31,884 bases of DNA, from IMG/VR virus record IMGVR_UViG_3300045741_000146, positions 1 to 31,884 of that record; one strand, given 5' to 3'. A program made the translations under genes and the position numbers. Within the stretch, counting starts at the first letter, position 1. Each line of letters opens with the position of its first letter. Origin of the DNA: a virus. Of the stretch, positions 3 to 24,077 are shown piece by piece. The notes under the pieces were generated by a model, which was not told where the DNA came from, did no database searches, and saw only the letters and a list, made by a program, of their open reading frames with translations.

Positions 3-2072
3 GCCCTTGAAAACAAGACTGCTTATTTCCAAAATGGTGATGGAAACAACGTTGGCACTCCAACTCCAGGTAAAGTAAAATACCCTATTGATAAACTTAA
101 CGAACAACTTCGTGATCGTGAAGATAAGCAAATGGTTGGCCAAAAGCCATTCCCAGGTGTTGGTCCAGTTGATGGTCTTCACCCATCTCCAAATTCTGCA
201 GAAACTTCTGACGAATTAAAGCGTAAAGAAATGTTACGTAGAGCTGGCCTAAGAGCTAAGTTTAATAGATTTGCAAATGAAGATGGCACTATTAATTTAG
301 GAAAGAGTGCATGGGAAGTTTATAACGGAGAAAAATTACTTTTAACTGCATCTGTTGATGAGTTATCTGGTGGTCGTTCAGAAGTTATGCACGACAGCAT
401 TGCAACTAAAGATTTCGGAACTAAATTACTTGAAAAAGTAAAGGCAAATGGTGTTGATAAGATTCGTTCTCTTATAAAGAGCGCTCAAGTTCCACCAGCT
501 CCAGAAGCAGCTCCTCCAGCAGATTCTTCTGCCCCTCCAGCTGATGCAGCTGCTGAGCCAGTTGAAGATGCAGGCAATTCAGGAGATCCAGGAGCCAATG
601 TTGTTGAAATGGCAGAAAAAGCCAGAGACTTACTTTCTGATTTAGTTGAAGGTGCAAGAGCCTTAACTGGTGAACAAGCAGAAATGGGAGCAATGGAAGG
701 CGCACCAGCACCTGAAATGGGCGCAGCAGCTTCATTTAGCTCTGGAACACTAAATAATTTAAGAAAAGAACTTAACGGCACACTTAATACAGCCATGAAG
801 GAAGCAATTGCTAACCTTAATGACCACATTCAAGAACTTGAAATGATTCAAGGTCTTTATGATAAGGGTGCAGTAACCAGCTCTAATCAAGGTACTGTTG
901 GTAACATCGTTGAGGATGCACTAAATGAAACTAAGTCTGCAATTGCAGATGGTTTTAAGTTGATGACCGCTTTCGTCAAATACGCTCGTGGTACCAAAGC
1001 AATTGTCAAGCGTGCAGAAATTGAAGCAGAACTTGAGGCATTAGCTGAGGGAGAAAATATGACAGGCGAACATGACGCTAATAATGGCGATGATTTAATG
1101 GCCATGATCTCTGACACCAACTCCGATTTGGATGATGTCAAGAATTTAATGGCAGATGACAACGATCACGGTGGATTAGAACCACATGATGAGTTACTTG
1201 AAATGCTTGGTGGTGATGGTGGATTACCAGCAGATGATGCAAATGATCTAAAGGTTGATGTTAAGCCAGAAGCATTAGACAAACTTCCTCCTGGAAGCGT
1301 TGTTACAGCGGGTTTCGATTCTAAAGCAAGCCGCGCAGTTTTAAGAGCAAAATTGGCCGCAGATGCATTAGGAAAACAAGAAGATGGAGAAATCCAAGAT
1401 ATGTCACATGCAAAGTTTAGTGACATGTTACAAGAAGCAGATCATCTTGCTGATGGTCAAACTGCTCTTGATGTAAAGCCATCTGATAATCTTGGAAAAG
1501 TTGAAACTCTTCCTGAAGTTAATAAGGCCATGATGGATCTTGCAAAAGCTCCACCAAAGGTTCGTAAAGAAGCAGAAGCAATTTATAAGCTAGTTTCTGA
1601 AGGAAAACTTGATCCAGCTGATTTAGATGCATTAGTTGCAGAAGGATTAGATAAGGATGCAGTATCTTATTACAAGAAATACTGGGCACAAGCTGATGGT
1701 GGTTCTGAATTCGCAAGTGAATTAGTTAAAGAACATGTTAAAGCTCAATTAGAAGAAGAGATTAACAAGTACAAGATCAAATTAGCCAGAGCATATGAAT
1801 TAGCTTATGATATGGTTGATCGTGATATGTGCGCACCAGAAAGAATGTATGTAACTGCTCAAGTAGATGAGATTATGAAGTTTAATGATGAATCTTTCGA
1901 ATCATTAAAGAGAGTAGTTGCAAGACGCGAACCAGTTCTACGTAAGAATGCTGGACGTCTTCCACAAGTTGGTGTAATTGGCTCTGGTGAAATCAATACT
2001 GCTGCTCCAGCAGATGATGATTGGTCTCAATTGTCCGCAGCATTTGCTAAAACTTCCAAGAGAATGTTTTAA
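3..2072 (+). CDS. Scaffold/core-like virion protein (5' truncated)
   Basis: The reading frame is open from the first bases of the window, so the ATG at 132 is probably internal and the true start lies upstream. The visible part is 690 residues. It is acidic and mostly helical, with an Ala/Pro-rich linker at about residues 120-155 (numbered from Met 132), a long Asp/Glu-rich middle, and a charged C-terminal helical region that includes KLARAYELAYDMVDRD and QVDEIMKFNDESF. Composition and position upstream of the capsid gene resemble a prohead core or scaffold protein, but no family is identified with certainty. A KSAQ motif at 116-119 precedes the Ala/Pro linker and matches motifs in the downstream virion proteins. 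Virion or prohead assembly is likely; the exact role is inferred. Confidence 0.75.
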   Translation, partial: ALENKTAYFQNGDGNNVGTPTPGKVKYPIDKLNEQLRDREDKQMVGQKPFPGVGPVDGLHPSPNSAETSDELKRKEMLRRAGLRAKFNRFANEDGTINLGKSAWEVYNGEKLLLTASVDELSGGRSEVMHDSIATKDFGTKLLEKVKANGVDKIRSLIKSAQVPPAPEAAPPADSSAPPADAAAEPVEDAGNSGDPGANVVEMAEKARDLLSDLVEGARALTGEQAEMGAMEGAPAPEMGAAASFSSGTLNNLRKELNGTLNTAMKEAIANLNDHIQELEMIQGLYDKGAVTSSNQGTVGNIVEDALNETKSAIADGFKLMTAFVKYARGTKAIVKRAEIEAELEALAEGENMTGEHDANNGDDLMAMISDTNSDLDDVKNLMADDNDHGGLEPHDELLEMLGGDGGLPADDANDLKVDVKPEALDKLPPGSVVTAGFDSKASRAVLRAKLAADALGKQEDGEIQDMSHAKFSDMLQEADHLADGQTALDVKPSDNLGKVETLPEVNKAMMDLAKAPPKVRKEAEAIYKLVSEGKLDPADLDALVAEGLDKDAVSYYKKYWAQADGGSEFASELVKEHVKAQLEEEINKYKIKLARAYELAYDMVDRDMCAPERMYVTAQVDEIMKFNDESFESLKRVVARREPVLRKNAGRLPQVGVIGSGEINTAAPADDDWSQLSAAFAKTSKRMF

Positions 2073-2100
2073 GCACTAAACAAATTGAATAGAGGATACT

Positions 2101-2919
2101 ATGTCTAATAAAAGTGTATCAGATTTTGTCGCTGCAACTATGGATGCAGTTTTAAAAAGTGAAGCTCATAAGTCTTTATTTAACACACAATATAAGTTTG
2201 CATCAGATGAAAATGATGCAAAGTGTGCTAAATGTGGAAGTGGTTCTTGCTCATGTGACTCTGCAAGTGCAGACGATAATGATGCAAAAAAGAAAATGCC
2301 ACCTTGGCTAAAAGATAAGAGCGATTCTGCAAGCGCAGATGATAATAATGACGCTCGTAAGAAAAAGGAAGAATCTTCTTCTTCTAGCAGCGACTCTGCA
2401 AGCGCAGATGACAATGACGCCCGCAAAAAGAAGGAAGAATCTTCTTCTAGCTCAAGTGATTCTGCAAGTGCAGATGATAACGATGCTCGTAAGAAGAAGG
2501 AAGAGTCTTCTTCTAGCTCAAGCGACTCTGCAAGTGCAAGCGATAGTTCTTCTATGGAATCTTCTGCTGCATTTGATATTGCAATTGATAGTTTATTAAC
2601 TGCTTCTGCAGCATTAGACTCTGTTGGAATGGAAAAGTCTGCTGAATTCAGTTTGAAACTTGCTTCTTTTGTTGTTGAAGCAAAAAAGAAGGACAAGGAT
2701 TCTAAGAAGAGCGATACTAATGACGCTCGTGCAAAAGCCAAGGAAAAGGCTACTAAGGAAAAAGAAAAAGCAGCAAAAGAAAAGGCCAAAGAAAAAGAGA
2801 AGCACGACACTCAAATGGCAAAAGATAAGGCAGCTAAGGAAAAAGCTAAGGCTAAGGAAAAGGCTGACAAAGAAAAGGCTGCTAAAGAGAAGGCCAAGTC
2901 ATCTTCTTCTAAGAAGTAA
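2101..2919 (+). CDS. Low-complexity Ser/Asp/Lys repeat protein
   Basis: This 272-residue protein has a GAGGA ribosome site 5 bases before its ATG. Order of parts: an N-terminal helix with a KFAS motif at 32-35; a possible metal-binding cysteine cluster (C42, C45, C50, C52); tandem units of the type DSASADDNDARKKKEE followed by a serine run (about 53-146); a short helical module (about 155-195) resembling the hairpin in the next two genes; and a C-terminal tail built almost only of Lys, Ala and Glu (about 197-265). The charged tail could bind DNA or act as a packaged internal protein. That is inference, since no known family is recognised. It sits in a run of same-strand head genes. Confidence 0.8.
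   Translation: MSNKSVSDFVAATMDAVLKSEAHKSLFNTQYKFASDENDAKCAKCGSGSCSCDSASADDNDAKKKMPPWLKDKSDSASADDNNDARKKKEESSSSSSDSASADDNDARKKKEESSSSSSDSASADDNDARKKKEESSSSSSDSASASDSSSMESSAAFDIAIDSLLTASAALDSVGMEKSAEFSLKLASFVVEAKKKDKDSKKSDTNDARAKAKEKATKEKEKAAKEKAKEKEKHDTQMAKDKAAKEKAKAKEKADKEKAAKEKAKSSSSKK
2257..2538 (+). repeat. Tandem repeat encoding DSASADDNDARKKKEE-Ser units
   Basis: In-frame tandem units of about 66-69 bases encode an acidic patch (DSASADDNDA), a basic patch (RKKKEE) and a serine run. There are three full copies at residues 75-140, plus partial units on either side. The element D-x-N-D-A-[K/R] occurs six times in the protein, including copies outside the tandem block. Confidence 0.85.
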
Positions 2920-2933
2920 TAACGAGGTCAATT

Positions 2934-3161
2934 ATGTTTAAAAAAGCTAGTTTTGAAGACGAGATCTATCATTCGATGGAAAAACAACTTGTAGCAACAC
3001 AAGTTGAAAATGAACATGGATTCAAGAGGCTAGCACAAGCTGCTGATTATCTCAACGCTGCCGCTGAGATTTTTGAGCAAGCTGGTATGTCAGAACAAGC
3101 AGATGAAATAACTGAAGTCTTGCATGGATTATCTCAACAATTATCCGGCAAGACTTCTTAA
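2934..3161 (+). CDS. Small helical virion protein, paralogue of next gene
   Basis: This 75-residue protein has a GAGGT ribosome site 5 bases before the ATG. Its N-terminus (MFKKASFEDEIYHSMEKQL) matches that of the next gene (MIKKSIFEDELIYGMQREL). The following helical hairpin (AADYLNAAAEIFEQAGMSEQ) also matches the neighbour, so the two arose by duplication. The function is unknown. Their place among head genes suggests small internal or accessory virion proteins. An RLAQ tetrapeptide at 32-35 is a loose version of the motif seen in neighbouring proteins. Confidence 0.75.
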   Translation: MFKKASFEDEIYHSMEKQLVATQVENEHGFKRLAQAADYLNAAAEIFEQAGMSEQADEITEVLHGLSQQLSGKTS

Positions 3162-3175
3162 TTTTAGGATCTTTA

Positions 3176-3568
3176 ATGATTAAGAAAAGCATATTTGAAG
3201 ATGAATTAATTTATGGCATGCAACGTGAATTGCAAGCACATGATAAAAAACAAGGTATGAATAACCTTGTTAAGGCAGCTGATTATCTTCAATCTGCAAT
3301 TGAGATTTTTGAAGAGGCCGGACTTACATCAAAAGCTGATCAACTTTTAAAAATATTAAATAAAATTGCAAATGATGAACAAAATGCGTGGCATACTAAA
3401 GGATTAAATCCAGATAAAATGACCAATAATTTAAATCAGCATGGAACAGTATTTAATATGGTAGATGATTCTAGTGCAGAAGATGATTTACTTAATGTAG
3501 AAGTTGGAAATGAACCTTTAGAAGTATCAGACCCAAACCCTGAAAAAACCTTTGAAGATAGCGATTAA
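3176..3568 (+). CDS. Small helical virion protein, paralogue of previous gene
   Basis: This is a 130-residue protein with an AGGA ribosome site 6 bases before the ATG, and the gap to the previous gene is 14 bases. Residues 1-70 align with the previous protein: the FEDE N-terminus, AADYL, then IFEEAGLTSKAD. An added acidic, disordered tail of about 60 residues follows. No known family is recognised. The shared hairpin also appears in the genes at 2101 and 5094, so it is likely a small virion component or assembly partner. Confidence 0.75.
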   Translation: MIKKSIFEDELIYGMQRELQAHDKKQGMNNLVKAADYLQSAIEIFEEAGLTSKADQLLKILNKIANDEQNAWHTKGLNPDKMTNNLNQHGTVFNMVDDSSAEDDLLNVEVGNEPLEVSDPNPEKTFEDSD

Positions 3569-3608
3569 ATTGTTATATACTGAGTAGGTATAGTTAGAAA
3601 AGGCTCAC

Positions 3609-4298
3609 ATGCTCAGATTAGTTCAAGTTGGTAATACACTTCCAGCCTCATTTATAGTCGATCCTTCAGCTGAATTTCAGCCAGGACAAATTGCCGAATT
3701 AACAGTAATTGGAAATCAAGTAATGGCAACCATTAGTAATGGTACTGCTCCAATTGGCGTTATTGACGATATTAAAACAAAAGCTTTTACTAATGTATCA
3801 TGGAATGAAGTAGTAATTGTTCCAGCAGTTGGTGTTTCTGGTCCAGGCGGAACAATAGTAACCCCAATTGATATTAAAGCTGAACTTAAAAAGCCAAATA
3901 TTATTGCATCTAGTTTTAATTCAACAGTTAATGTTGTTTTAAATCCTGTAAATGGTATTATTACATTTGTTGCTGGAACTCAATTAAATTTTGATTTAAT
4001 GGGAACTGGCTCTCCTAATGCAATTAGAACTATTGTTAATTATACTTATCAAGTAGCAAATATTCCTGGAGATGATAGTACTCAAGGATCAGGTAGAGTT
4101 ACTGTTTGGTTTAATAGAATGTTTTTCCAAACAGATCAATATGAAACCAATCAACAATATCCTGTTAGAGCTAATTTATATGTTTCTGAAACAGGTTTCT
4201 TAACTACTAGAAGACCAAGTAGTATTCATCCTGCTGTAGCTATGGTTACTGCCCCTCCTACTCCAATGAATCCCATGTTGGAAATTTTATGGTATTAA
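3609..4298 (+). CDS. Beta-rich virion protein, possibly decoration-like
   Basis: This 229-residue protein is preceded by a purine-rich site (AAAAGG). It is rich in Val, Ile, Thr, Gly and Pro with few charged stretches, as in a beta-sandwich virion protein. The N-terminus (LRLVQVGNTLPASFIVDPSA) leads to a GTAPIGVIDD segment; APIG followed by a hydrophobic strand is reminiscent of head decoration proteins. That similarity is weak and by eye only. There is no signal peptide or membrane segment. The function is not established; it is a structural protein by context. Confidence 0.65.
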   Translation: MLRLVQVGNTLPASFIVDPSAEFQPGQIAELTVIGNQVMATISNGTAPIGVIDDIKTKAFTNVSWNEVVIVPAVGVSGPGGTIVTPIDIKAELKKPNIIASSFNSTVNVVLNPVNGIITFVAGTQLNFDLMGTGSPNAIRTIVNYTYQVANIPGDDSTQGSGRVTVWFNRMFFQTDQYETNQQYPVRANLYVSETGFLTTRRPSSIHPAVAMVTAPPTPMNPMLEILWY

Positions 4299-4348
4299 TT
4301 CGGTAATTTATTGAAACTGTTGATATAAGTTTGTATGGAGGTGTTTAC

Positions 4349-5050
4349 ATGCACTATTTATACAGAATCACAGATACATTAAATAATAAAGTTTACATTG
4401 GTCAGGCAGTAAATATTCAAAGACGCTGGACAGATCATAAGTGGAATGCTAAACAAGAAAATGCAATTCAATATATTAGTCGAGCTATGAATAAATATGG
4501 AATTTCAAATTTTATTTTTGAAGTTATTGCTACTTGTCGCAATCAAGATGATGCTAATGAAATTGAAAGTATTTTAATAGAACAGTATAATAGTCGAAAT
4601 AAAGAATATGGTTATAATATCAAGCCTGGTGGAAATAACTCTCCTCAGGCAGAAGAAACGAAAGAAAAAATACGTCAAGCTACAATTAAACAAATTGCTG
4701 AAAAAGGCCATCCCGCTCAAGGCCACAAATGGAGTGACGAACAAAAAACAAATTTAAGCATAACTTTAAAAGCGTTGGATAAAGAAGCCATTTATACCGA
4801 AGAAGTTCGTCAAAGAATGTCTGAAGCTCATATAGGAATTAAAGACTCTGAAGAGACTAAGCAAAAGAAATCTGAAAGCATTAAAAATCAGTGGCAAATT
4901 CGAGGTAATTACGATTCTAAAAAATGCGAAGCTGCTTGTTGCGAAGTATCTGGCAAAGCTAAATATAAGATAATTAATGGAATTCGCTATTGCAATAAAC
5001 ATGGCTTACGAATGTTACGTTATAATAGATTAGATACTTTAGATAGCTAA
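4349..5050 (+). CDS. GIY-YIG homing endonuclease
   Basis: This is a free-standing mobile endonuclease that would cut a cognate site and spread by repair. The ATG at 4349 is chosen over an upstream in-frame TTG at 4331 because a strong GGAGGT site lies at 4337-4342. From this ATG: a GIY-YIG core at 3-18 (YLY...VYIG), Arg 25/26 after it, the metal-ligand Glu in the helix DDANEIESILIEQY (about 73), and YGYNIKPGGN at 87-96. Next come NUMOD3-like DNA-binding repeats of the type S-E-E-x-[K/R]-x-[K/R]-[M/K]-S. The C-terminus has a Cys/His-rich segment (CEAACC...C-x-x-H) that may bind zinc. It is unrelated to the flanking virion genes and more AT-rich than the capsid genes, so it is an inserted gene. 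Confidence 0.9.
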   Translation: MHYLYRITDTLNNKVYIGQAVNIQRRWTDHKWNAKQENAIQYISRAMNKYGISNFIFEVIATCRNQDDANEIESILIEQYNSRNKEYGYNIKPGGNNSPQAEETKEKIRQATIKQIAEKGHPAQGHKWSDEQKTNLSITLKALDKEAIYTEEVRQRMSEAHIGIKDSEETKQKKSESIKNQWQIRGNYDSKKCEAACCEVSGKAKYKIINGIRYCNKHGLRMLRYNRLDTLDS

Positions 5051-5093
5051 TATCGTTGCATATTATAGAATAAATTGATCTATTGAGGCACAT

Positions 5094-6260
5094 ATGACTT
5101 TTAAACATGTAAAATTCGAAGATTCTGTGGTAATGCGCTCTTTGGAGAAGCTTGCCAAAGATAAAGGTTTAGTAAAATCTGAAGAAATTACTAAAACCGC
5201 AGCGCCTAAACTAGATTTATCTCCATCAGGAGCATTGATTAATAACGTTTTAAAGCTTTGTGAGGGCTTAAGACAGTCTGGTTTAATCAAACACGCAGAT
5301 GATTTAGAAGAGAAGTTTATAAATTACAAGCAAGCCCAAACATTATATGAAGCTCATTCTGAAAAGGGTGAAGATTTAATTGATCGCGCTCATCCAAAAG
5401 GAAGTCATCATCTTGAAGATGTTGAGGGCGATGAAGCGGTAATTGAAACTATTTTAGATCAACAGCTTAAAGCTTTAGATATGATTAAAAAGGTTCCAAC
5501 TGGAAAATTATCTAATGCAAGTTCAATAATTGATGCTGTAAAAGTTGTTTTAGCGCAATCTCCATTAACAGTAGATAGCGTAAAACAAGTTGCAAGAGAA
5601 GTTGTTGCAACTATTTCAACAATAGATTCTATGACGGGTGATGAACTAACAGTTTCACTTAGTAATTTCGTATCACACGCTCAAAAATTAGCAGAAAATC
5701 CAACAGTTTATAATTTAAAAGAAATGAAAGCGCTTTTAAATAGATTATATAAAAGATTAGATCCATCTATTAGTGGCGCTAGTATGGGTTTAGGCGGAGT
5801 TAGCGATTATACTTGGAATAGACTTCAAAATTTATTAAGTAAAGCAAATAATTTAGTTGAGAAGGCAGTTTCTCTTCGTGTAAAATTAGATCAATCAGAA
5901 TCAGAATCAGCATCATTAGAAGGTCATGAAAGTCCAGAATCTGGCGGACAATCTAGAACTGGCGAGACCGTTGTAATGAATGCAGAAGGTAAGCAATTTA
6001 TTTCTCAAGTAAATAATTATTTATCTCAATTAAGCGGGTTTCAAGTTGCAATAGAAAATGACCCTGAAAACTCTGCCGCTGATAAGAGTCAAGCAAATGC
6101 ATGGATTTATGGAAAGATAAATGCATTAAATGGTTTAAAGCAACAATTCTTATCTGAACAAGATCAAACTGTACAAAATAATAAGGCAGCTGGATTTTTA
6201 TCAGCATTAGGTAAAAATGTAAAGGATTTTGCAAAATTTAAGAGTGAATGGATTGGCTAA
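5094..6260 (+). CDS. Large helical virion protein
   Basis: This is a 388-residue, largely helical, soluble protein with a GAGG ribosome site. The N-terminus has a FED element (HVKFEDSVV) like the genes at 2934 and 3176, then KTAA at 34-37. A helical hairpin (LRQSGLIKHADDLEEKF) matches the small-protein module. A segment containing AHP (DLIDRAHPKGSHH) and, further on, KVPTGKL has a counterpart in the gene at 9628 (MEVAHPNS and KTPDGL). The C-terminal half is Gln/Asn/Ser-rich helix. No known family is recognised. It leads a run of five consecutive large genes (to 10863), probably internal head or neck proteins. Confidence 0.7.
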   Translation: MTFKHVKFEDSVVMRSLEKLAKDKGLVKSEEITKTAAPKLDLSPSGALINNVLKLCEGLRQSGLIKHADDLEEKFINYKQAQTLYEAHSEKGEDLIDRAHPKGSHHLEDVEGDEAVIETILDQQLKALDMIKKVPTGKLSNASSIIDAVKVVLAQSPLTVDSVKQVAREVVATISTIDSMTGDELTVSLSNFVSHAQKLAENPTVYNLKEMKALLNRLYKRLDPSISGASMGLGGVSDYTWNRLQNLLSKANNLVEKAVSLRVKLDQSESESASLEGHESPESGGQSRTGETVVMNAEGKQFISQVNNYLSQLSGFQVAIENDPENSAADKSQANAWIYGKINALNGLKQQFLSEQDQTVQNNKAAGFLSALGKNVKDFAKFKSEWIG

Positions 6261-6261
6261 T

Positions 6262-7410
6262 ATGTCTGATAGGCTAAAAAAATTAGTTCAAGAAATTAAT
6301 AAATATGCGCAGGTCCCAACAAGAAGCAAGGGATCTAAAACCACTGTTGCGCCAAGCAAATCAGAACCAATTTCAAACGTACCACATAAGACAACAAATA
6401 TTCCCAGTGTAAAACCTATTGGTGGTGGAGCAAATCCAAGTGAAGACGTTAAAAAGATGCAACAAGCTATTTTAAATTTAGCTGATGTAGCATCTGCGAC
6501 TGATGTAACATCAATGTCTGGAAATCAATCTGGTAAATTAACTGGTAATCAAACTAGAGCAATTCCAGTTGTTGATGATAAAAATATAAAGCCAGGTGAT
6601 TTAACTAAAGATCAAGCGGCTGATTTGAATGCACAAACTAAAGATGATAAAAATTATCTTGGTGGTTCAGATGCATTTGGAAATTTTATAACTCAAAATT
6701 ATTTGAAAAATAGTCCATTTATTGGAAAACAATATTTAAATACAGATGTTTCTGGTCAAGAAAATAGACAATCTGCATCAATTAAGCCAACTAATTTAAG
6801 GGGAATAATTGATACTATAAAAAGAGTTGGCTCACCAAATGCAAAAGGTGAAAAATCAGTAGATGGTTTGTGGCAAACTAGAACAAATAATGCTTTACAT
6901 GTAATTCGTGATTTGGTTTCTGCAATGTTATCTTTTACTAAAGATATGAACATTAAGGTGCCTGGATATACAGAAGATGATTTAAAAAAGTTTAGAGTTC
7001 CAGAATCTTATAATGATATGAAGTCATCTGAAGAAATTTCTAGTATTGCAAAAGGTTTGACATTGCATTTGAATGCTATGATTAAGTTTTTTGAAAATTT
7101 GAATGCTCAAATATTTAACAATAAAGATTTTAGAAAATATATTGATCAAAAAGAACCATTTGCAAAATATACAAGAAACATTCAAATACCAAATAACATG
7201 AAAGTATTTGGAATACCTGGAATTCAATTTAGCTGGATTAAAGATCCAAAACAAAATTGGATTTCATTGAATGAATTATCTAGTTTAGATAATTTTAAGG
7301 GATTTTTGCGTAGAACTTTAAATTTAACTAATCCAGATCAAGAGTCAATAAATAAAGTTTTTGATTTAGTATATAAACAAATAAACACGCAATCAGATCC
7401 TGGATATTAA
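6262..7410 (+). CDS. Virion protein of unknown function
   Basis: The ATG at 6262 lies one base after the upstream stop. The frame is open back to a TTG at 6229, but that would overlap the previous gene. No good ribosome site is seen, so translation is probably coupled. The 382-residue product starts with a short helix and KYAQ (14-17), followed by about 130 residues of disordered Ser/Thr/Lys/Asn-rich linker and then a helical C-terminal half. The segment VDGLWQTRTNNAL faintly resembles the DG-x-x-G-x-x-T-x-x-A core of peptidoglycan-binding repeats; this is a weak, by-eye resemblance. The function is unknown. Confidence 0.7.
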   Translation: MSDRLKKLVQEINKYAQVPTRSKGSKTTVAPSKSEPISNVPHKTTNIPSVKPIGGGANPSEDVKKMQQAILNLADVASATDVTSMSGNQSGKLTGNQTRAIPVVDDKNIKPGDLTKDQAADLNAQTKDDKNYLGGSDAFGNFITQNYLKNSPFIGKQYLNTDVSGQENRQSASIKPTNLRGIIDTIKRVGSPNAKGEKSVDGLWQTRTNNALHVIRDLVSAMLSFTKDMNIKVPGYTEDDLKKFRVPESYNDMKSSEEISSIAKGLTLHLNAMIKFFENLNAQIFNNKDFRKYIDQKEPFAKYTRNIQIPNNMKVFGIPGIQFSWIKDPKQNWISLNELSSLDNFKGFLRRTLNLTNPDQESINKVFDLVYKQINTQSDPGY

Positions 7411-7420
7411 GGAAAAATTG

Positions 7421-8503
7421 ATGTCATTTATAATAGAAGATGAAAATTTAATACATCAATTGGTAAAGTTATCACAAACTCCTTTACCACCGCAACCAAG
7501 CCCTAAACAATTTATAGATATTGCAAAAGAGCTTGTAAAAAATTTACAGACTGAATTATCTGGTGAAACTATTTTTACAGCAGAAAGAGATAATGCTGAT
7601 CTTAGTCAAGCACATATAGTTAATGTAAATGATTTATTATTCTTTTTAAATTATAATGAAATTAAAGCTAACGGTAAAAGTTTAGTTTTTAAAGCTCAAA
7701 ATTTTGATTTAAAAAATTTAGGTGATGATGGTAAATTATATGTTGCATATCCTACTCAAGGTGAAGCAATGTATTATATTTATAGAGATGGTTTGGCTCG
7801 TTATTTAGAAGATCTAAAAAGTAAAGTTACTGATAATCCTATTTTTACTGCTATGTTAGTTAAATTAACTAATAAAATTAATGCAGAGTTACCTTTACCA
7901 AAAAGACCAGAGACTCAAGTAGCTCCATCTACGCCTCCTCAATCAGTTAAACCAGAAAAAGAAGGTGAGCCATCTTCTAGTGGTAGTACTGGTCAAGTAA
8001 CACAACAAACATTACAACAAATGGCTTTAGCTTTACCTCTTGATGCTAATGATATTGATTTTGTAAGAATAAATAATTTCTTTATGTTGTTTAAACAGCT
8101 TTTAGCAAATTCAAATAATCCAAGAGCAAGTGATATCAATCAAACAATGTATGATGTTCAAACAAAAATGAATTTTGTTAGCACAGATCAAACTAGAACA
8201 CCATTACAACAATTTAATCTATATTCTGATCCTGAAGCAATTGTAAATATATTAAAGCCACCAGTTGCTGGAAGATATGTTCCATTTTTACATAACTTAC
8301 AGTTTATAGTAGATGGTGCTGCAAGAGTTGTTGATGCTTTTTATGCAATGTATGCAAGACAAATCCCTGGCGAAGAAAATCGTCCGGTTTTTACTCCAAA
8401 TCAAAGATCTTTAATTGAGGCGCAATCTAGAGGCGGCGATTCTTATGTTATGAGAAATAAAGAAAGCCTTCAAAGCCTAATAAATAGATATAAAGAATTA
8501 TGA
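7421..8503 (+). CDS. Virion protein of unknown function
   Basis: The ATG at 7421 is preferred over a TTG at 7418 because AAGGA lies 7 bases before it. The 360-residue product begins SFIIEDENLIHQLVKLSQ, an instance of the shared N-terminal motif, followed by a Pro-rich stretch. An alpha/beta region follows (about 20-160), then a Pro/Ser/Glu-rich linker (about 165-195) and a helical C-terminal domain. Its stop overlaps the next start by four bases (ATGA), so the two are translationally coupled. No family is recognised. Confidence 0.7.
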   Translation: MSFIIEDENLIHQLVKLSQTPLPPQPSPKQFIDIAKELVKNLQTELSGETIFTAERDNADLSQAHIVNVNDLLFFLNYNEIKANGKSLVFKAQNFDLKNLGDDGKLYVAYPTQGEAMYYIYRDGLARYLEDLKSKVTDNPIFTAMLVKLTNKINAELPLPKRPETQVAPSTPPQSVKPEKEGEPSSSGSTGQVTQQTLQQMALALPLDANDIDFVRINNFFMLFKQLLANSNNPRASDINQTMYDVQTKMNFVSTDQTRTPLQQFNLYSDPEAIVNILKPPVAGRYVPFLHNLQFIVDGAARVVDAFYAMYARQIPGEENRPVFTPNQRSLIEAQSRGGDSYVMRNKESLQSLINRYKEL

Positions 8504-9576
8504 AAAACAATAGTGAAATCAGTTTTTATGTAGATACTATGATAGTAGAAACCCTACTAACAGATCAGGTATTGTCTAAAACTGCTCAATCTGGAGTTTT
8601 ATCTCAATTAGTTGAAAAAGTAAAGGGATATGTTGGAAGTCATATTGATCCAAATGATAAATCTGGTAGTTTGCTTAATATATTAGCTCCAGGTGCCATT
8701 TCTGTTACATTTAGTGCTTTAGGATTACCTTGGTTAGGTATTTTATTTGGTTTGGCAATGAGGGTTTTAAATATTGATGTTAAAGGTATTTTAAAATCTA
8801 TTTGGGACAAATTAAAAAGCTCTTTAGGTAATGATAAGCAAATTTCTTCTAGTGAAGTAGATAATATTGTAAATTCATCTGTTCAAGAACATAGTTCTCC
8901 AGCAACACAAGAAGAGGCTGATAAAGCCGCACAATTAATGCAACAAAAAACATCTTCATTATTGAGAGATGCTAAATTATTAAAATTAGCTATGATTGAA
9001 TTTGATAATATTGAATTTAATAAAACTGCAGCACCTTCATCATTTTTATCAGCATATAGTGCAAAAAAAGCTTCTACAACTAGTTTATTATCTAAAGTAT
9101 TAAGTTGGATTTTTAAAGTTTCAATTGCATCTGCTGGATTAATGGTCGCGGGTGATGTTATTAATAAATTTTTGGGTCGCCCTAATGCATTGGATGGAAC
9201 TATTCAAAATGGAAAAGAAGTAGAACAATCTCAAACTCCATTATATACATCTAAACAAACCAAATTTAAAATTAATACTAATTATGTAAATGAAAATAAA
9301 AATGCAGGCAATTCTAATTGGGTTGAAAATGTATCAAATGATAAACAATCAGTAGAATCAATGTTAGTTAATTTTGCAAAACAAGTTTATCAAGGATTAG
9401 ATGGATTAGAATCAATTATAAGATCATCTCCTGCATTTCAAGTTATTGCAGATAGAATAGCTTTTTATAATCAAACATCTGCTGGAGATGCTATGGTATT
9501 TATTCCAAAGTATTTTACTTCAAAAAAACAAATTGTTGATATGTTTATTGATGATGTGGCAGAAAAAGCACCATAA
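8500..9576 (+). CDS. Virion protein with two hydrophobic segments
   Basis: This 358-residue protein overlaps the previous gene by ATGA. Two hydrophobic segments are visible, at about 58-90 (with PGAISVTFSALGLPWLGILF) and about 196-220 (with FKVSIASAGLMVAGDVINKF); the second looks like a true transmembrane helix. KTAQ at 27-30 and KTAA at 175-178 give two copies of the motif seen across the head proteins. The C-terminal third is soluble and Asn/Gln-rich. A membrane-active internal virion protein that helps DNA entry is possible, but this is inferred from the segments and context only. Confidence 0.7.
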   Translation: MKNNSEISFYVDTMIVETLLTDQVLSKTAQSGVLSQLVEKVKGYVGSHIDPNDKSGSLLNILAPGAISVTFSALGLPWLGILFGLAMRVLNIDVKGILKSIWDKLKSSLGNDKQISSSEVDNIVNSSVQEHSSPATQEEADKAAQLMQQKTSSLLRDAKLLKLAMIEFDNIEFNKTAAPSSFLSAYSAKKASTTSLLSKVLSWIFKVSIASAGLMVAGDVINKFLGRPNALDGTIQNGKEVEQSQTPLYTSKQTKFKINTNYVNENKNAGNSNWVENVSNDKQSVESMLVNFAKQVYQGLDGLESIIRSSPAFQVIADRIAFYNQTSAGDAMVFIPKYFTSKKQIVDMFIDDVAEKAP

Positions 9577-9627
9577 TAATGCATAGCTCGACATATTATT
9601 ACTATTACTTTTTAGGATGAATAAACC

Positions 9628-10863
9628 ATGAAAAACAGTGAGATTTTCGATAGCTTTGTAAAAATAGCCCAAGAAAAGGGAATGATCTCTAATGATTCTA
9701 GTGCCTCTAAAAAGAAATTAGAACAAACTGGTCGTGCAGACTCTTTGGATATTTCAGCTATTGAAGCATTATATGGTGTTAAAGGTAGCACTTCAAAAGA
9801 TATGGAATATGAAAAAAATATTATGGAAGTTGCTCATCCAAATTCTATTGTTATTTCACCATCATATGATAAACTAAATGGATTAGTTGAAAGCGAAATT
9901 GAAAGACAAAATATTAATTTACATATTGTTAATAAAACGCCAGACGGATTACAGACAAAACACAAATATGCTGAAAAAGAATTAACATTATCTTTAGTTA
10001 GAATTGCTAATGATTTAGATAATAGAAATGAAGATTCACTTCGCACATTAGCTGATTTTTGTTTATTGCAAGTAAGTAAAAAAAAAATTAAAAAAGTAGC
10101 AAATCCACTTGCAATAGCTTTGGTTGTTGGAGCTGCCGCAATATTAGGTGGACTTTATCTTAAACAACATATTGGGCTTATTAGCGATGGTATAGAAAAA
10201 GACCATCAAAAATTGATTTCAGAAATTGATGATTTAATTAATTCTAATTCTAATTGGGGAGTTGGTTATAAATATAAACCAGAATTTATTCAAATGATGA
10301 GATCATTTAGAGATAAATTAACGGCTTTTTATGGTGTTTATAGTCAAATAGCTCCAGCAATTGATGAGCTTGAAAAGCCAAGAGATGCTGCCGAATTACT
10401 TCAAGTTGCAAATAGTCCAAAAACAATTAATTTTATTAAATATTATAATGCATTTAAAAATGCAGCCAATTCATTGTATCCAATGATTAAGAAAATTCAA
10501 GAAAATTTTGCAAATGAATCTTATAAGCAACGTCAAATTCAAGATAAAGGTGCATTAACTTCTTTAATTGACGCCCCTCAAATCTTTCATGGTGGTAAAG
10601 GTTTAATTGCAGATGATTTCGATGATGTTAGACATGCATTAGATACTTATGTTAATGATATTGCAAATGTATCTAAAGTATTATCTGAAGCAGAAAATTT
10701 AAAGCAAAAAGCAACTACAGAAATGCAAGAAGCATCTATGGAAAGCAATACTTTATTAGGTCCAGGACCTTCTGAAAATACATCTAATAGAAATGTTAGT
10801 GATATTGACCAAGAAGGTGGGGATTTAGAAAAACAACTTAAGGAACATGGATTTTTAGGATAA
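9628..10863 (+). CDS. Virion protein with one transmembrane segment
   Basis: This 411-residue protein has an AGGA ribosome site 10 bases before the ATG. The N-terminus (IFDSFVKIAQ) carries the shared motif at 12-15. Residues 60-110 contain an AHP...TPDG arrangement like that of the gene at 5094. A clear transmembrane helix lies at about 159-179 (NPLAIALVVGAAAILGGLYL) behind a lysine cluster (KKKIKK). The rest is coiled, charged helix. No family is recognised. Like the gene before it, it may be an internal or injected virion protein. Confidence 0.7.
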   Translation: MKNSEIFDSFVKIAQEKGMISNDSSASKKKLEQTGRADSLDISAIEALYGVKGSTSKDMEYEKNIMEVAHPNSIVISPSYDKLNGLVESEIERQNINLHIVNKTPDGLQTKHKYAEKELTLSLVRIANDLDNRNEDSLRTLADFCLLQVSKKKIKKVANPLAIALVVGAAAILGGLYLKQHIGLISDGIEKDHQKLISEIDDLINSNSNWGVGYKYKPEFIQMMRSFRDKLTAFYGVYSQIAPAIDELEKPRDAAELLQVANSPKTINFIKYYNAFKNAANSLYPMIKKIQENFANESYKQRQIQDKGALTSLIDAPQIFHGGKGLIADDFDDVRHALDTYVNDIANVSKVLSEAENLKQKATTEMQEASMESNTLLGPGPSENTSNRNVSDIDQEGGDLEKQLKEHGFLG

Positions 10864-10904
10864 ATATAGTAATAATTGCTTATTTATTTGCTTAAACATA
10901 ATTT

Positions 10905-10925
10905 TTATTACAAATCTGGTAATAA
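10905..10925 (+). other. Hairpin in the leader of the decoration gene
   Basis: A perfect 7-bp AT-rich stem, TTATTAC and GTAATAA, encloses a 7-base loop. It lies in the 150-base gap between the membrane-type gene and the decoration gene. There is no U tract after it, so it is not a standard terminator. It may be a processing or regulatory hairpin. The rest of the gap is AT-rich and shows no convincing promoter. Confidence 0.35.
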
Positions 10926-11013
10926 TGAAATATGTTCTTTAGATTTTGTAAGTTAAGGTGTAAGTAATCATATCAATGACAAGCTCTTGATATTAGAAAT
11001 TTAGGAAAATAAA

Positions 11014-11733
11014 ATGGCTTTAAAACTATTACAACCAGGTTGCCAACCATTAGGTCAATTTGACGGTCTTGATACTGAAGTATTAACTCTTAAGGGTGGA
11101 GAAGTTGTTACATTAGTATCTTCTGTAGTACCACCAGGAGACAAGGCAGCAGCCGATTCTTTCGATGGTTATACTAACCCAGCTGGAACTCAAAAGCGTC
11201 CAGTCGTAACCAAGACATTAGACGCCTATGCTCGTCCATTAATGCTTGCTGATGAAGGTGTTTCTGGATACGGTACATTATTCGGTACTGTTGTTGGTGG
11301 TACTGTTGGTCAAACAACTTACGGTGTTGGATCTACTGTTCCAGCTTCTGCATTACTTGGACCACACACTGCAACTGGTTCTGGCAAAGTAACTTGCTGG
11401 GAAAAGCCAGGTCTTTACGCAGTATCTCTTGATGCATGCGACACTACTGTTTCTACAGGCCTTCAACCAACCAATACTACTATTGATACTGGTAAGCCAC
11501 TTTATTACACCACTGCTGGACTTTTGACTCCAAACGCCGCAGCAGCTCCATTAGGACTTGGTGGTGCACAAGTAGTTGTCGGTCGTTTCGTAGATTTCGA
11601 AACCAACGGTTCTTTGGTAACCACTCCAAACAGACTAGTTGCCGCTCTAAACAGCCCATCTGGTTTAATATCTTCAGTTGGTCCTCGTCAATTTGCTTTC
11701 GCAACTTTCTACTTCAACCCACCAGCAGCTTAA
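11014..11733 (+). CDS. Probable capsid decoration/stabilising protein
   Basis: This 239-residue protein has an AGGA ribosome site 7 bases before the ATG and lies directly upstream of the major capsid gene. It is Gly/Thr/Val/Pro-rich and beta-type, with few charges: MALKLLQPGCQPLGQFDG, repeated GT-V-G stretches near 90-110, and a C-terminal strand region (RQFAFATFYFNPP). Codons are strikingly different from its upstream neighbours: C-ending Phe, Asn, Tyr and CGT Arg codons are common, a mark of very high expression shared only with the capsid gene. An abundant capsid accessory protein fits best. The family is not identified by a diagnostic motif, and a tail-tube or other abundant virion protein is an alternative. 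Confidence 0.65.
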   Translation: MALKLLQPGCQPLGQFDGLDTEVLTLKGGEVVTLVSSVVPPGDKAAADSFDGYTNPAGTQKRPVVTKTLDAYARPLMLADEGVSGYGTLFGTVVGGTVGQTTYGVGSTVPASALLGPHTATGSGKVTCWEKPGLYAVSLDACDTTVSTGLQPTNTTIDTGKPLYYTTAGLLTPNAAAAPLGLGGAQVVVGRFVDFETNGSLVTTPNRLVAALNSPSGLISSVGPRQFAFATFYFNPPAA

Positions 11734-11740
11734 TCGCTCT

Positions 11741-11867
11741 GAATTGATTTAATTCTAGCCGAGTGGCTGGAAGAGACATGAAGTCTCAAATCTCGTAAAA
11801 AGGAACCACTCACTTTCTTTAAGTTAACTTTCAAGCTAGTAAGACTGGCAAAAAATTCCACTAGGAG
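11741..11867 (+). other. Structured leader upstream of the major capsid gene
   Basis: This 139-base gap is long for this region and holds several inverted repeats. GAATT/AATTC (11741-11755) encloses a 5-base loop. GAGTGG (11761-11766) pairs with CCACTC (11806-11811) around an inner hairpin GAGAC/GTCTC (11773-11787), whose 5' arm could instead pair with TCTC at 11791-11794. A palindrome AAGTTAACTT lies at 11821-11830. CTAGT (11836-11840) can pair with ACTAG (11860-11864), which overlaps the AGGAG ribosome site (11863-11867). The pairings are seen directly; a regulatory or RNA-stability role is inferred. Confidence 0.45.
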
Positions 11868-11872
11868 ATTTC

Positions 11873-12886
11873 ATGAATATGTTCAATCAACAAGGCCAAA
11901 TGAACGCCTCATCCCTTAAGGATGCATTACAAACTCTTGTTAAGTATGCCGCTGTTCTAGAAGAGAACACCCCATCTAACATGGGTCTTGCAGGTCAAAC
12001 TGCATTAAGCGACGATAAGCGTGATGAGCTTATTTCTCGTGCAATTATGACTCAAGATGGCAAGATTGCTTTAGCACAAGCTATGGCAAACCCAATCCGT
12101 AGAAACTTAGATTACCACGGTATCGCACGTAGAGCACTTGTAGTAGATCCTCTACCACAAGGAGCAATGCCAACTTACGATAGAGATATCGATGTTGCTG
12201 CCGTTGTTATTTCTTCTAACGGTACTGGTCCAGAATCTAGAGTTTTCGGTGACAGAGTAGTTGTTCCAGAATTCGAAATTTACGCAAACCCAACTGTACG
12301 TATCGCTGAAGTAAAGCGTCGTAGATTTAATGTTATCGACAGAGCTGTTCAAAAGGCACGTCAAGAAATCATGGCACAAGAAGATGCAAACATTTTCGCA
12401 GCTCTTGATGCAGCATCTTCTGTTGAAAACGTCTTAACTGACATCGCAGATGCAGGTCTTCTTAAGAGAGACCTTGTTGAAATCAAGCAACAAATTGATC
12501 GTTGGGACTTAGTTACTACTAAGTACTTCATGAACATCAATGAGTTCACTGATATCCTTAAGTGGGGAGCTGGTGGCGGACAAGGTGTCGGTGGTGGTGA
12601 CTTCGATCCAGTAACTATGAGAGAAGTTCTACAAACTGGTCTTTATGCCCACATCTGGGGAACTGACATTATGGTATCTAAGATCGTTCCACCAGGAACC
12701 ATCTACGGTGCAGCAGATCCAGAGTTCGTTGGAGTAATGCCAATTCGTCAAGACATTGAAGTTCTTCCAGCAGATGAACCAAAGCAACTTAAGTTAGGTT
12801 GGGTTGTTTCTGAAATCATCGGAATCGCTATCGTTAACCCACGTGGTTGCGCAGCAGGAAGAAAGAGCGTTGTTACTGGAGCTTAA
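11873..12886 (+). CDS. Major capsid protein, HK97-type
   Basis: This 337-residue protein has a strong AGGAG ribosome site 5 bases before the ATG. The sequence has the feel of large myovirus capsid proteins: NPIRRNLDYHGIARRALVVD, then a beta region (RVVVPEFEIYANPTVRIAE), a long helix (VIDRAVQKARQEIMAQEDAN), and a C-terminal region with IWGTDIMVSKIVPPGTIYGA and a terminal GCAAGRKS. Residues 1-27 form a short helical arm ending in KYAA (24-27), which could be a cleaved propeptide. Codon choice is strongly biased to C-ending and CGT codons, in line with the most abundant virion protein. A strong terminator follows. Assignment rests on sequence character and context, without a database search. Confidence 0.82.
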   Translation: MNMFNQQGQMNASSLKDALQTLVKYAAVLEENTPSNMGLAGQTALSDDKRDELISRAIMTQDGKIALAQAMANPIRRNLDYHGIARRALVVDPLPQGAMPTYDRDIDVAAVVISSNGTGPESRVFGDRVVVPEFEIYANPTVRIAEVKRRRFNVIDRAVQKARQEIMAQEDANIFAALDAASSVENVLTDIADAGLLKRDLVEIKQQIDRWDLVTTKYFMNINEFTDILKWGAGGGQGVGGGDFDPVTMREVLQTGLYAHIWGTDIMVSKIVPPGTIYGAADPEFVGVMPIRQDIEVLPADEPKQLKLGWVVSEIIGIAIVNPRGCAAGRKSVVTGA

Positions 12887-13005: not shown

Positions 13006-13845
13006 ATGATTTCAATTAATTTATATGAAGAATGTAAAAAATTATATTTAGAAGGCATGTCTGTTGCAAAAATTTGTGAATTAAAAAAATTAGATAGACA
13101 CAATTTGTCAAAAAAATTTAAAAAAGATAATTTAGAGGTCAAAAAAGGATTTTCTTATGCACGCAAATATAATCTTAATGAACATTATTTTGATGTAATT
13201 GATACTGAAGAAAAGGCTTATATTTTAGGTTTTATATATGCTGATGGCAACAATTTATTTCAAACAAATAGAGTTGCAATACAATTATCTATTGTAGATA
13301 AAGAAATACTTGAAAAATTTTCTCAAATTATGTTTGGTCAAGAAAATTTAAAATATTGTAAAAAGAAAAATAATAAAGGTAAAGAATTTGAATATGTTAG
13401 TTTAAATATGTATAGTGAGTATATGAGTCGTCATCTTGCAACTTTAGGTATAATCGAGCGCAAATCAAAATTAATTACATTTCCAGAATGGCTTGATAAA
13501 TCATTATATAAACATTTTATTAGAGGATTAATTGATGGAGATGGTTGGATTTATTTGGCAGAAAATAATAGATTAAGTCCAAATGTAGGTTTAATATGTA
13601 CTCGTCAAATAAATGATAAATTATCAATTTTATTTGAAAAACAATTAGGTCTTAAAAGTTATCTTTGTAAAGCGAATAAACAAGATTTTGATGTAATGTG
13701 TGAAATTAGAATAAAAAATTATCATCAAACTAAAATTTTACTTGATTGGCTTTATAAAGACGCTACTATTTATTTGAAAAGAAAATATGATTTATATCAA
13801 AATTTCCTTTATAAGTATGATAATATAAGAGATCAAAATAAGTAA
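13006..13845 (+). CDS. LAGLIDADG homing endonuclease
   Basis: This 279-residue protein has an AAAGGA ribosome site 5 bases before the ATG. An N-terminal helix-turn-helix-like segment (EGMSVAKICELKKLDRHNLS, about 16-35) is followed by two LAGLIDADG motifs, AYILGFIYADG (71-81) and HFIRGLIDGDG (170-180), each ending in the acidic residue that binds the catalytic metal. Two motifs in one chain mean it acts as a monomer. The order and spacing match single-chain enzymes. It sits right after the capsid terminator, between head and fibre genes, and uses more AT-rich codons than the capsid gene. It is probably an intact, free-standing selfish gene. Confidence 0.9.
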   Translation: MISINLYEECKKLYLEGMSVAKICELKKLDRHNLSKKFKKDNLEVKKGFSYARKYNLNEHYFDVIDTEEKAYILGFIYADGNNLFQTNRVAIQLSIVDKEILEKFSQIMFGQENLKYCKKKNNKGKEFEYVSLNMYSEYMSRHLATLGIIERKSKLITFPEWLDKSLYKHFIRGLIDGDGWIYLAENNRLSPNVGLICTRQINDKLSILFEKQLGLKSYLCKANKQDFDVMCEIRIKNYHQTKILLDWLYKDATIYLKRKYDLYQNFLYKYDNIRDQNK

Positions 13846-22799: not shown

Positions 22800-24023
22800 T
22801 TAAAATTTTCTTGCAACTTCTAATAAATGATATTTAGTATTATGTTCAGGGGTCTTTAATATTTCTAAATAACACGCCTCTAAAGCTTGTTTAATTCTTG
22901 GCCCAGCTGTCATTCCAGCGGCAAGCAAATCATTTCCATTTATATTCATTTGTCTTTTTGCCAAAACAATTTCATTATCAAATTTTGCAAGTTGATTTCT
23001 AGATCCCATTCCTAACGCTTCAGTTAATTTACAAAATTCTTCTAATGTGTGTTCCCAGTGGTCAGGCGCATGATTTTTAATCACTGCCATAAAGCTCTTA
23101 TAAGCCAAGGCGCTGTCTTTTTGAACAAAAATTTTGTATCTCTCTAAAATCTCTAATAAAAACAATACTTTATTGAGTTCTTTATTGGAAAACTTTAAAG
23201 ACATTAGTTCTTCTTTAACATTTTGAATAATAGAATTATTATATAGATAAGCTAATTTTGTTTCAAATTCTGCTTTTAAATTATCTAAATGCAATAGTGT
23301 ATTATTAGATTTATTTAATAGCGGACATATAATTTCTAAAGCTCCGCATTTTTGCAATAGTTGCATACCATATGAAGAGTTAGATGACATTATAATCTTG
23401 TGTAATTCATCTTGAATTCGCTCTTTTGAAACCAATTTAAGTGTTTCTAAATTTTTTCCCATAGCATCAAATGTATTAGATTCTACAGAATATCCAAAAC
23501 GAGCTGCAAATCTAGCTACTCGCATTATTCTTAGTCCATCTTCTTGGAATCTAAAATTAGCATCACCAACTGCCTTAATAATTTGATTATTAAGATCTTC
23601 AATTCCTTTAAATGGATCAACTAAAGAGTTATTTAAAGGGTCGTAAGCTATTGCATTGATAGTTAAATCTCTTCTTGATAAATCTTGATCAATATTCATT
23701 ACAAAAAAGACTTCTTCTGGCCTTCTACCGTCAGTATAAGCGCCCTCAATTCTAAAAGTTGTTACTTCAAAATGATTTTCAACACCAACGCCCATGGCAA
23801 CGGTTACAGTTCCATGTTGTAATCCAGTAGGAATAGTTTTAGGAAAAATTTTTATAACTTCTTTTGGAGGAGCATCTGTGGCAATATCCCAGTCTTTTGG
23901 AGTAGTTCCAAGAAGAAGGTCTCTTACACATCCGCCTACGATAAAGGCTTGATATCCGTTTTCATTCAGAATTTTACAAATTGAAACGGCTTTCGTGTTA
24001 ACTAATTTTTGTAAATTTAACAT
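22800..24023 (-). CDS. cca: CCA-adding tRNA nucleotidyltransferase (class II)
   Basis: This enzyme adds or repairs the 3'-CCA end of tRNAs. The ATG at 24023 gives 407 residues; a GTG two codons upstream (24029) is also possible and neither has a clear ribosome site. Motif A is GGCVRDLLLG (30-39) with catalytic Asp 44 and 46 in PKDWDIAT. EVTTFRIEG and the Arg/Asp strand SRRDLTINAIAYDP (116-129) form motif B. DPFKGIEDL is motif C, EDGLRIMRVARFAARF (161-176) is motif D, and the helical tail is full length for the family. It is the only minus-strand gene and lies between fibre genes. On its strand TTGACT and TATTTT are spaced 16 bases apart but only 6 bases before the ATG, so a leaderless start is possible. 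No tRNA gene is seen in the window. Confidence 0.93.
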   Translation of the reverse strand: MLNLQKLVNTKAVSICKILNENGYQAFIVGGCVRDLLLGTTPKDWDIATDAPPKEVIKIFPKTIPTGLQHGTVTVAMGVGVENHFEVTTFRIEGAYTDGRRPEEVFFVMNIDQDLSRRDLTINAIAYDPLNNSLVDPFKGIEDLNNQIIKAVGDANFRFQEDGLRIMRVARFAARFGYSVESNTFDAMGKNLETLKLVSKERIQDELHKIIMSSNSSYGMQLLQKCGALEIICPLLNKSNNTLLHLDNLKAEFETKLAYLYNNSIIQNVKEELMSLKFSNKELNKVLFLLEILERYKIFVQKDSALAYKSFMAVIKNHAPDHWEHTLEEFCKLTEALGMGSRNQLAKFDNEIVLAKRQMNINGNDLLAAGMTAGPRIKQALEACYLEILKTPEHNTKYHLLEVARKF

Positions 24024-24077
24024 GCGCACAAAATAAATCTTAAAAAAATGGAGTCAAGGGCCTTACAAAATTATATG

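Follow-up and report, generated by a model that had tools for sequence, protein, structure and literature searches.

A stretch of 31,884 nucleotides of viral DNA (IMG/VR record IMGVR_UViG_3300045741_000146, positions 1 to 31,884; the window, hereafter) is a genome fragment from a huge, phage-G-like phage and holds its head and fibre region. Most of its head proteins share a short N-terminal motif, refined with the help of orthologues to [L/I/V/F/M]-x-K-x-A, which is genuine, tied to position, conserved, and characteristic of head genes. It seems likely that this motif is the maturation site of a prohead protease with the predicted fold of T4 gp21 and herpesvirus assemblin, placed at the end of T4-like targeting leaders, with a specificity for K-x-A and not for x-x-E. 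This assignment follows from the capsid protein of the window, which matches phrog_2522 and gp27 of Bacillus phage G, the closest isolate (53% identity, gp27 against window residues 43-327), and has relatives in contigs of 430-480 kb. The best 80 of 285 capsid relatives in viral contigs are 89-99% identical to the window copy, and several of them sit in contigs of that size.

The first-pass annotation, made from the window alone, had listed recurring tetrapeptides of the type K-x-[AS]-[AQS] in the head proteins (named here by the first coordinate of their genes; Table 1), and all of them were confirmed in place: KSAQ in the first open reading frame (ORF), KFAS at residue 32 of the 2101 protein, KTAA at 34 (5094), KYAQ at 14 (6262), KLSQ at 16 (7421), KTAQ at 27 and KTAA at 175 (8500), KIAQ at 12 (9628), and KYAA at 24 of the capsid protein. 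When all positions in the head proteins are considered, the tetrapeptide occurs at chance level (19 against 16.9 expected, with 33% of 500 shuffles reaching 19), since Lys, Ala, and Ser abound in several of them, and we rejected the raw tetrapeptide as a composition-independent signal. Within residues 1-40, it is present in 8 of the 11 head proteins with known starts, against 1.55 expected (0 of 5,000 shuffles reach 8), and in none of the 11 other plus-strand proteins of the window. Since the motif was chosen after inspection of these genes, tests on orthologues, above all those on held-out upstream genes, weigh more than this one.

For the orthologue tests, genes were called in five related genomes (with a home-made caller for the starts), and orthologue groups were anchored on one of them, G006. 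Of its 694 genes, the 237 that had orthologues in three or all four of the remaining genomes were used as groups, and the long contigs G002 and G005 were left out. A conserved K-x-A within the first 45 aligned residues was found in 9 of the 21 groups of the terminase-to-capsid stretch versus 20 of 216 elsewhere (p = 1.9e-4); among 17 other residue pairs, none was significantly enriched except K-x-[AGS], which contains the motif. When at least one of the three residues before Lys had to be hydrophobic, the pattern was present in 8/12 window-type genes, 5/20 upstream head and packaging genes from outside the window (p = 0.013), 0/25 tail and fibre genes, and 11/180 others. The alignment-free pattern [LIVFM]-x-K-x-A near the N-terminus gave 9/12, 5/20, 0/25 (tail), and 4/180, respectively, with p = 6e-4 for the held-out upstream genes against the others. 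The value of 9/12 is partly circular, the pattern having been refined on those families, whereas the held-out 5/20 is not; the upstream set was defined by position and takes in non-head candidates (endolysin-like and nucleotidyltransferase-like), neither of which has the motif. Among the 16 altered patterns run, comparable enrichment was limited to K-x-[AGS], which again contains the motif; 3/12 window genes had [LIVFM]-K-x-A (p = 0.009), 3/20 upstream genes had [LIVFM]-x-K-x-V (p = 0.035), and none of the other 15 came near the motif itself. The whole-genome enrichment that the first-pass annotation had suggested looking for is therefore present, and non-structural genes do not carry the motif at an equal frequency. 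Within G006, K-hydrophobic-A-[AQ] occurs 15 times in the first 45 residues of proteins versus 22 times in their far longer remainder (odds ratio [OR], 3.1; p = 0.0018).

The site is also kept within the individual head families (2101 and 9628 in Table 1). K-x-[AGS] is found at residue 34 in 32 of 34 sequences of the 5094 family, in 25 of 26 of the 6262 family despite a body identity of 16%, and in all 42 sequences of the 8500 family at the first site and 32 of them at the second. In the capsid leader site, LVKYAA, Lys is kept in 98% and Ala in 100% of 62 sequences, while relatives of the 7421 protein carry K-x-[AG]-Q followed by an Ala/Pro linker at shifting places. The 2934 and 3176 proteins of the window are without an intact site where most of their relatives carry one, and orthologue alignments of the proteins at 3609 and 11014 contain no conserved site. 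The leader is more conserved than the body in seven of eight families, the capsid protein being the exception; in the 5094 family, it is the better conserved part in all 33 orthologues. After the site, the 6262 proteins and the scaffold continue into an unalignable linker rich in Pro and Ala, an arrangement also seen in the 7421 relatives. The proteins had been described at first as otherwise unrelated, which does not hold for all of the leaders: a profile of the 5094 leader picks up 9628-family N-termini (E values of 4e-4 to 0.02), and the leaders of 2934 and 3176 find each other.

The rules of the site were derived from six N-terminal sites of head families (7, 34, 26, 42, 51, and 62 sequences) and four sites of the protease-scaffold protein described below (62, 61, 61, and 60 sequences). 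On average over these ten, Lys is present at position 0 in 96% and Ala at +2 in 95%, and about 85% have Leu, Phe, or Ile at -2; the residues at -1 and +1 are unconstrained, and a mixture occurs at +3 (Q 26%, S 18%, A 15%). Of the leader and scaffold sites listed at first in the window (without the second 8500 site), seven of eight have a hydrophobic residue at exactly -2, and KFAS has Tyr at -1. Conservation of every second residue (-2, 0, +2) is the pattern that an extended peptide lying in a protease groove would give.

A protease that could read such a site is encoded at the left edge of the window. The first ORF had been annotated from Met 132, which is wrong: the ORF is truncated on its 5' side and its full-length relatives have 1160-1253 amino acids, so that KSAQ is an internal site. 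The G006 counterpart has 1219 residues (281824-285483), and, of the 14 other related records that were searched or aligned, 12 contain full-length counterparts and two more contain partial ones. The head maturation protease family phrog_18299 matches the G006 protein at residues 106-214 (E value of 6e-13), and the gene lies in the order terminase (272728), portal (274669), protease-scaffold (281824), and capsid (295873). Thirty protease cores of three lineages (the window type, phage G gp19, and the Tunturiibacter phage type) were aligned, with identities to the first sequence of 21-89%; H103 and S154-M155-G156, holding the putative catalytic His and Ser, are invariant. An AlphaFold2 (AF2) model of the core, built from an alignment with distant sequences (predicted local distance difference test [pLDDT], 84.8; predicted template modelling score [pTM], 0.79), is closest to T4 gp21 (5jbl; Z score of 10.4, 2.8 Å over 132 residues), followed by herpesvirus proteases with Z scores from 9.5 downwards, and Foldseek also ranked 5jbl first, weakly (E value of 5e-3). 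A first model from 35 close sequences was poor (pLDDT, 51; pTM, 0.38) and was replaced by this one. A PDB sequence search with the protease domain gave no match; the Pfam S78 profile matched none of 18 records, with controls matching in four genomes, and S77 matched none of the 18 nor any control and is uninformative. By the phrog_18299 match and the gp21-like predicted fold, the prohead protease that the first-pass annotation had guessed at, a predicted serine protease of the gp21/assemblin fold, makes up the front half that the first ORF lacks in the window and is fused ahead of the scaffold. The core also holds a conserved C-x-x-C...C-x-H in all three lineages (Cys 164, 167, and 178 invariant and His 180 nearly so, numbered by the first sequence of the alignment), which resembles a small zinc site.

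K-x-A is concentrated on both sides of this core. Its frequency per 100 residues in the N-flank, core, and C-flank is 3.86, 0.28, and 2.75 in the window lineage (70 sequences), 5.13, 0.43, and 4.23 in the Tunturi_5 type (11 sequences), and 5.66, 1.61, and 5.81 in phage G (2 sequences). These are distinct sequences from 80 loci in the window lineage and 15 in the Tunturi_5 type, the remainder having missed the boundary patterns or being duplicates; sequences within a lineage are related, and the counts amount to three observations, not 83. In the window lineage, the counts are 128, 38, and 63 against shuffled means of 39.7, 96.9, and 40.0, whereas the core is at expectation in the Tunturi_5 type (9 versus 8.9) and above it in phage G (6 versus 2.0). 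Therefore, the excess in the flanks holds in all three lineages and the depletion in the core only in that of the window. The flanks are the low-confidence ends of the AF2 model, as would be expected of segments holding cut sites.

The scaffold half keeps its internal K-x-A-Q ahead of a Pro/Ala linker that defies alignment. A module like Y[FY]xGTEEPTPGxxKYPxD...PFPGVGxVDGxHPSP is also present in this half, twice in tandem (within 281824-285483 in G006 and 3-400 in the window). An unlinked G006 gene (269674-270408) starts with LTKWAQMYKKSYFQGTEEPTP, a K-x-A-Q leader joined to the start of the scaffold tandem module, and the region at 69466 of another related genome, G001, holds a stand-alone ORF of 77 residues that is 45% identical to a 60-residue scaffold stretch (residues 578-637 of the G006 fusion).

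The first-pass reading of the motif as a protease site or packaging tag stands in that a prohead protease exists and head genes are enriched in the motif; cleavage and targeting themselves we infer. Head proteins would enter the prohead with N-terminal leaders of about 14-36 residues, which would probably bind a core built from the scaffold half of the fusion. After closure of the shell, the protease would free itself at the K-x-A sites on both sides of its own core and would then cut leaders and scaffold, most likely just after Ala, a bond favoured because the residue after Ala varies. The capsid targeting sequences, or gp21 propeptides, of T4 are likewise short N-terminal leaders on otherwise different head proteins, with sites of the form I/L-x-E; targeting and removal by the prohead protease have been demonstrated there and are deduced here. 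T4 leaders have 7-65 residues (PMC9026906). The site of the window family is not of the Glu-ending (x-x-E) type: its conserved residues are the hydrophobic one at -2, Lys at 0, and Ala at +2, and Glu is not conserved there. The system works like the T4 leaders, yet we do not class it as a member of the T4 type because the Glu-ending site, the mark of that system, was looked for and is not there.

Herpesvirus assemblin has the fold predicted for the phage protease (Z scores of up to 9.5), a protease fused to a scaffold, sites beside the protease core, and Ala before the cut. It differs in that here the protein is that of a phage, Lys stands two residues before Ala, the core has the added C-x-x-C...C-x-H, and protease and scaffold form one fusion protein, whereas those of herpesviruses are nested gene products. 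Among giant phages, SPN3US also has many head proteins with N-terminal propeptides, cut by gp245 at several sites each, and its sites, proven by mass spectrometry, read A-x-E (PMC5694885, PMC10052503), in contrast to the [L/I/V/F/M]-x-K-x-A found here. The phiKZ-type sites likewise end in Glu and read S/A-x-E (PMC9026906). In both phages, the site thus consists of two residues with a free one between.

Several observations weigh against a maturation site. The known phage proteases of the gp21 kind cut after Glu in the parts of the literature consulted. In the 9628 and 5094 leaders, the residues after the first K-x-A (EKG-L) are conserved too, a feature as compatible with a binding helix as with cleavage. 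Conserved K-x-A also occurs in the bodies of the capsid protein (GKIALA, 55 of 62 sequences, with none of the three residues before Lys hydrophobic) and of the scaffold, where cutting would do harm. The N-terminal excess of K-hydrophobic-A-[AQ] is weak in G001 (OR, 1.7; p = 0.12). Tunturi_5-type capsid proteins are without a leader, and the sites are found there only round the protease. Phage G gp27 is leaderless too, beginning at the residue matching residue 43 of the window capsid protein; this start past the leader region counts in favour of the maturation site. Thus, the shell fold works without a leader. The major capsid proteins of PaBG, Lu11, Motura, and Aura have an alignable GEINAS-like segment at the N-terminus but no K-x-A in it; therefore, the capsid leader site is not shared that far.

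Phage G itself gives a mixed picture. Raw K-x-A is present in 8 of its 28 head-region genes versus 92 of 491 others (p = 0.22), and the refined motif in 5 of 28 versus 33 of 491 (p = 0.045, marginal), both of which also count against the proposal. Besides its leaderless capsid protein, it differs from the window in that its gp19 protease has 300 amino acids and no long scaffold fused to it. Convincing single cases include the portal gp14 with AKQAAS near its start, gp13 with SKTAAR, and gp19, with VKTAAKVVKIAPK ahead of the core and LLKIAS after it. A further point against the proposal is the gene at 107642, tail-sheath-like by its start, which carries RFVKTASA, probably a chance occurrence. 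A paper on the phage G capsid, with mass spectrometry, reportedly appeared in J Mol Biol in 2020. The virion has been studied by that technique, according to PMC8570332.

The alternative that survives best is that the leaders serve for docking only, as an amphipathic N-terminal helix ending in K-x-A that binds the scaffold or inner shell and brings the proteins in uncut. It would account for the conservation of the 2101, 5094, and 9628 leaders over their whole length, for the resemblance among some leaders, and for the conserved EKG-L of 5094 and 9628. However, the -2, 0, +2 spacing is that of an extended strand and not of a helix face, and sites that also flank the protease core and precede the unalignable Pro/Ala linker of the scaffold are unexpected for docking; we consider this explanation improbable. 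Chance deserves very little credit: Lys/Ala-rich helical proteins often hold K-x-A, the pattern could have been picked to fit, and the raw counts in the window and in phage G would agree with this, but the position test, the held-out genes, and the conservation in 25 to 50 orthologues at body identities of 16-41% (6262, 5094, 8500, and 9628 families) do not. The least plausible proposal, that a host protease or a second phage protease cuts the sites, is at odds with K-x-A flanking the prohead protease core in three lineages and with the absence of the refined motif from the tail proteins (0 of 25).

If the motif is a maturation site, it might, more tentatively, be part of a general head import code, in which any protein with a leader ending in [L/I/V/F/M]-x-K-x-A would be loaded into the prohead and trimmed by the gp21-fold protease with Lys(P3)-Ala(P1) specificity. 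A K-x-A prohead site or such a specificity was not found in the phage literature searched, in the parts available and with subscription journals outside its scope. Such a code would be readable from sequence and would predict cargo encoded far from the head genes. Four G006 genes far from the head cluster keep the leader motif (203954-204451, 110774-112798 on the minus strand, 219419-220951, and 403826-404287), with motifs such as FKKIAQ, FEKLAQ, and LTKLAQ followed by a variable linker, and are candidates for packaged proteins. The capsids of phage-G-like phages are among the largest known, and only a minority of the head proteins have been assigned a role. A maturation site readable from sequence would show which of these genes make internal head proteins, where the mature proteins begin, and how an old protease fold came to prefer Lys/Ala to Glu. 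The proposal also makes direct predictions for phage G, which is an isolate.

Table 1. Head-region features of the window, with leader sites and the conservation of leader and body
Feature	Position	Strand	Site in orthologues and other remarks	Median identity to window copy, leader vs body (%)
C-terminal 689 residues of predicted prohead protease-scaffold fusion	3..2072	+	protease half outside the window; 61.2-73.5% identity to 4 loci	
KSAQ internal site, then variable Pro/Ala-rich linker	477..488	+	K 60/62, A/G/S 62/62, Q 57/62, middle residue free (one sequence, L298, doubtfully aligned at the site)	
Head protein, conserved 34-aa leader (2101-2202) ending in KFAS (2194-2205)	2101..2919	+	K-x-A in 7/7 sequences	79 vs 37 (6 orthologues)
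Small helical protein	2934..3161	+	relatives F-x-K-[LI]-[AS] at residue 32; window copy has Arg for Lys	65 vs 47
Small helical protein, paralogue-like	3176..3568	+	relatives L-x-K-x-[AG] at about residue 21; window copy not intact	65 vs 25
Homing endonuclease, GIY-YIG	4331-5050		interrupts head region; no leader-type site in residues 1-40	
Head protein, conserved 33-aa leader; LEKLA at 17-21, KTAA at 34-37 (5193-5204)	5094..6260	+		67 vs 25
Head protein, 16-aa leader ending in KYAQ (6301-6312), then variable Pro-rich linker	6262..7410	+		35 vs 16
Head protein, leader ending in KLSQ (7466-7477), then Pro-rich linker	7421..8503	+		
Head protein, leader ending in KTAQ (8578-8589); second site KTAA (9022-9033)	8500..9576	+		50 vs 39
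Head protein, leader ending in KIAQ (9661-9672)	9628..10863	+	K-x-[AGS] in 49/51 sequences	71 vs 41
Major capsid protein, N-terminal extension of ~42 residues with LVKYAA (KYAA 11942-11953)	11873..12886	+	phrog_2522, E value of 1.7e-76	85 vs 96
Homing endonuclease, LAGLIDADG	13006-13845		interrupts window; no leader-type site in residues 1-40	

None of the leader-bearing head proteins scanned had a Pfam match over its cut-off. The body of the 2101 protein is of low complexity, rich first in Ser and Asp and then in Lys, Ala, and Glu, a composition that might suit an internal DNA-associated protein. The adjacent, paralogue-like 2934 and 3176 proteins share a helical segment, A-A-D-Y-L-x-x-A-x-E-I-F-E-x-[AM]-G. 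The protein at 11014 was considered as a decoration protein, a role hinted at only by its place beside the capsid gene and unsupported by its sequence, which has no profile match to phage G gp26.

In the fibre region, the minus strand carries a tRNA nucleotidyltransferase gene (22800-24029; phrog_2244, E value of 1.4e-72), and a second, shorter relative of it is found in the packaging region of G006 (268352). The fibre protein encoded at 25485-31883 has at least 2133 amino acids and runs off the end of the window; it contains many collagen-like G-x-y repeats, broken up by repeated globular blocks.

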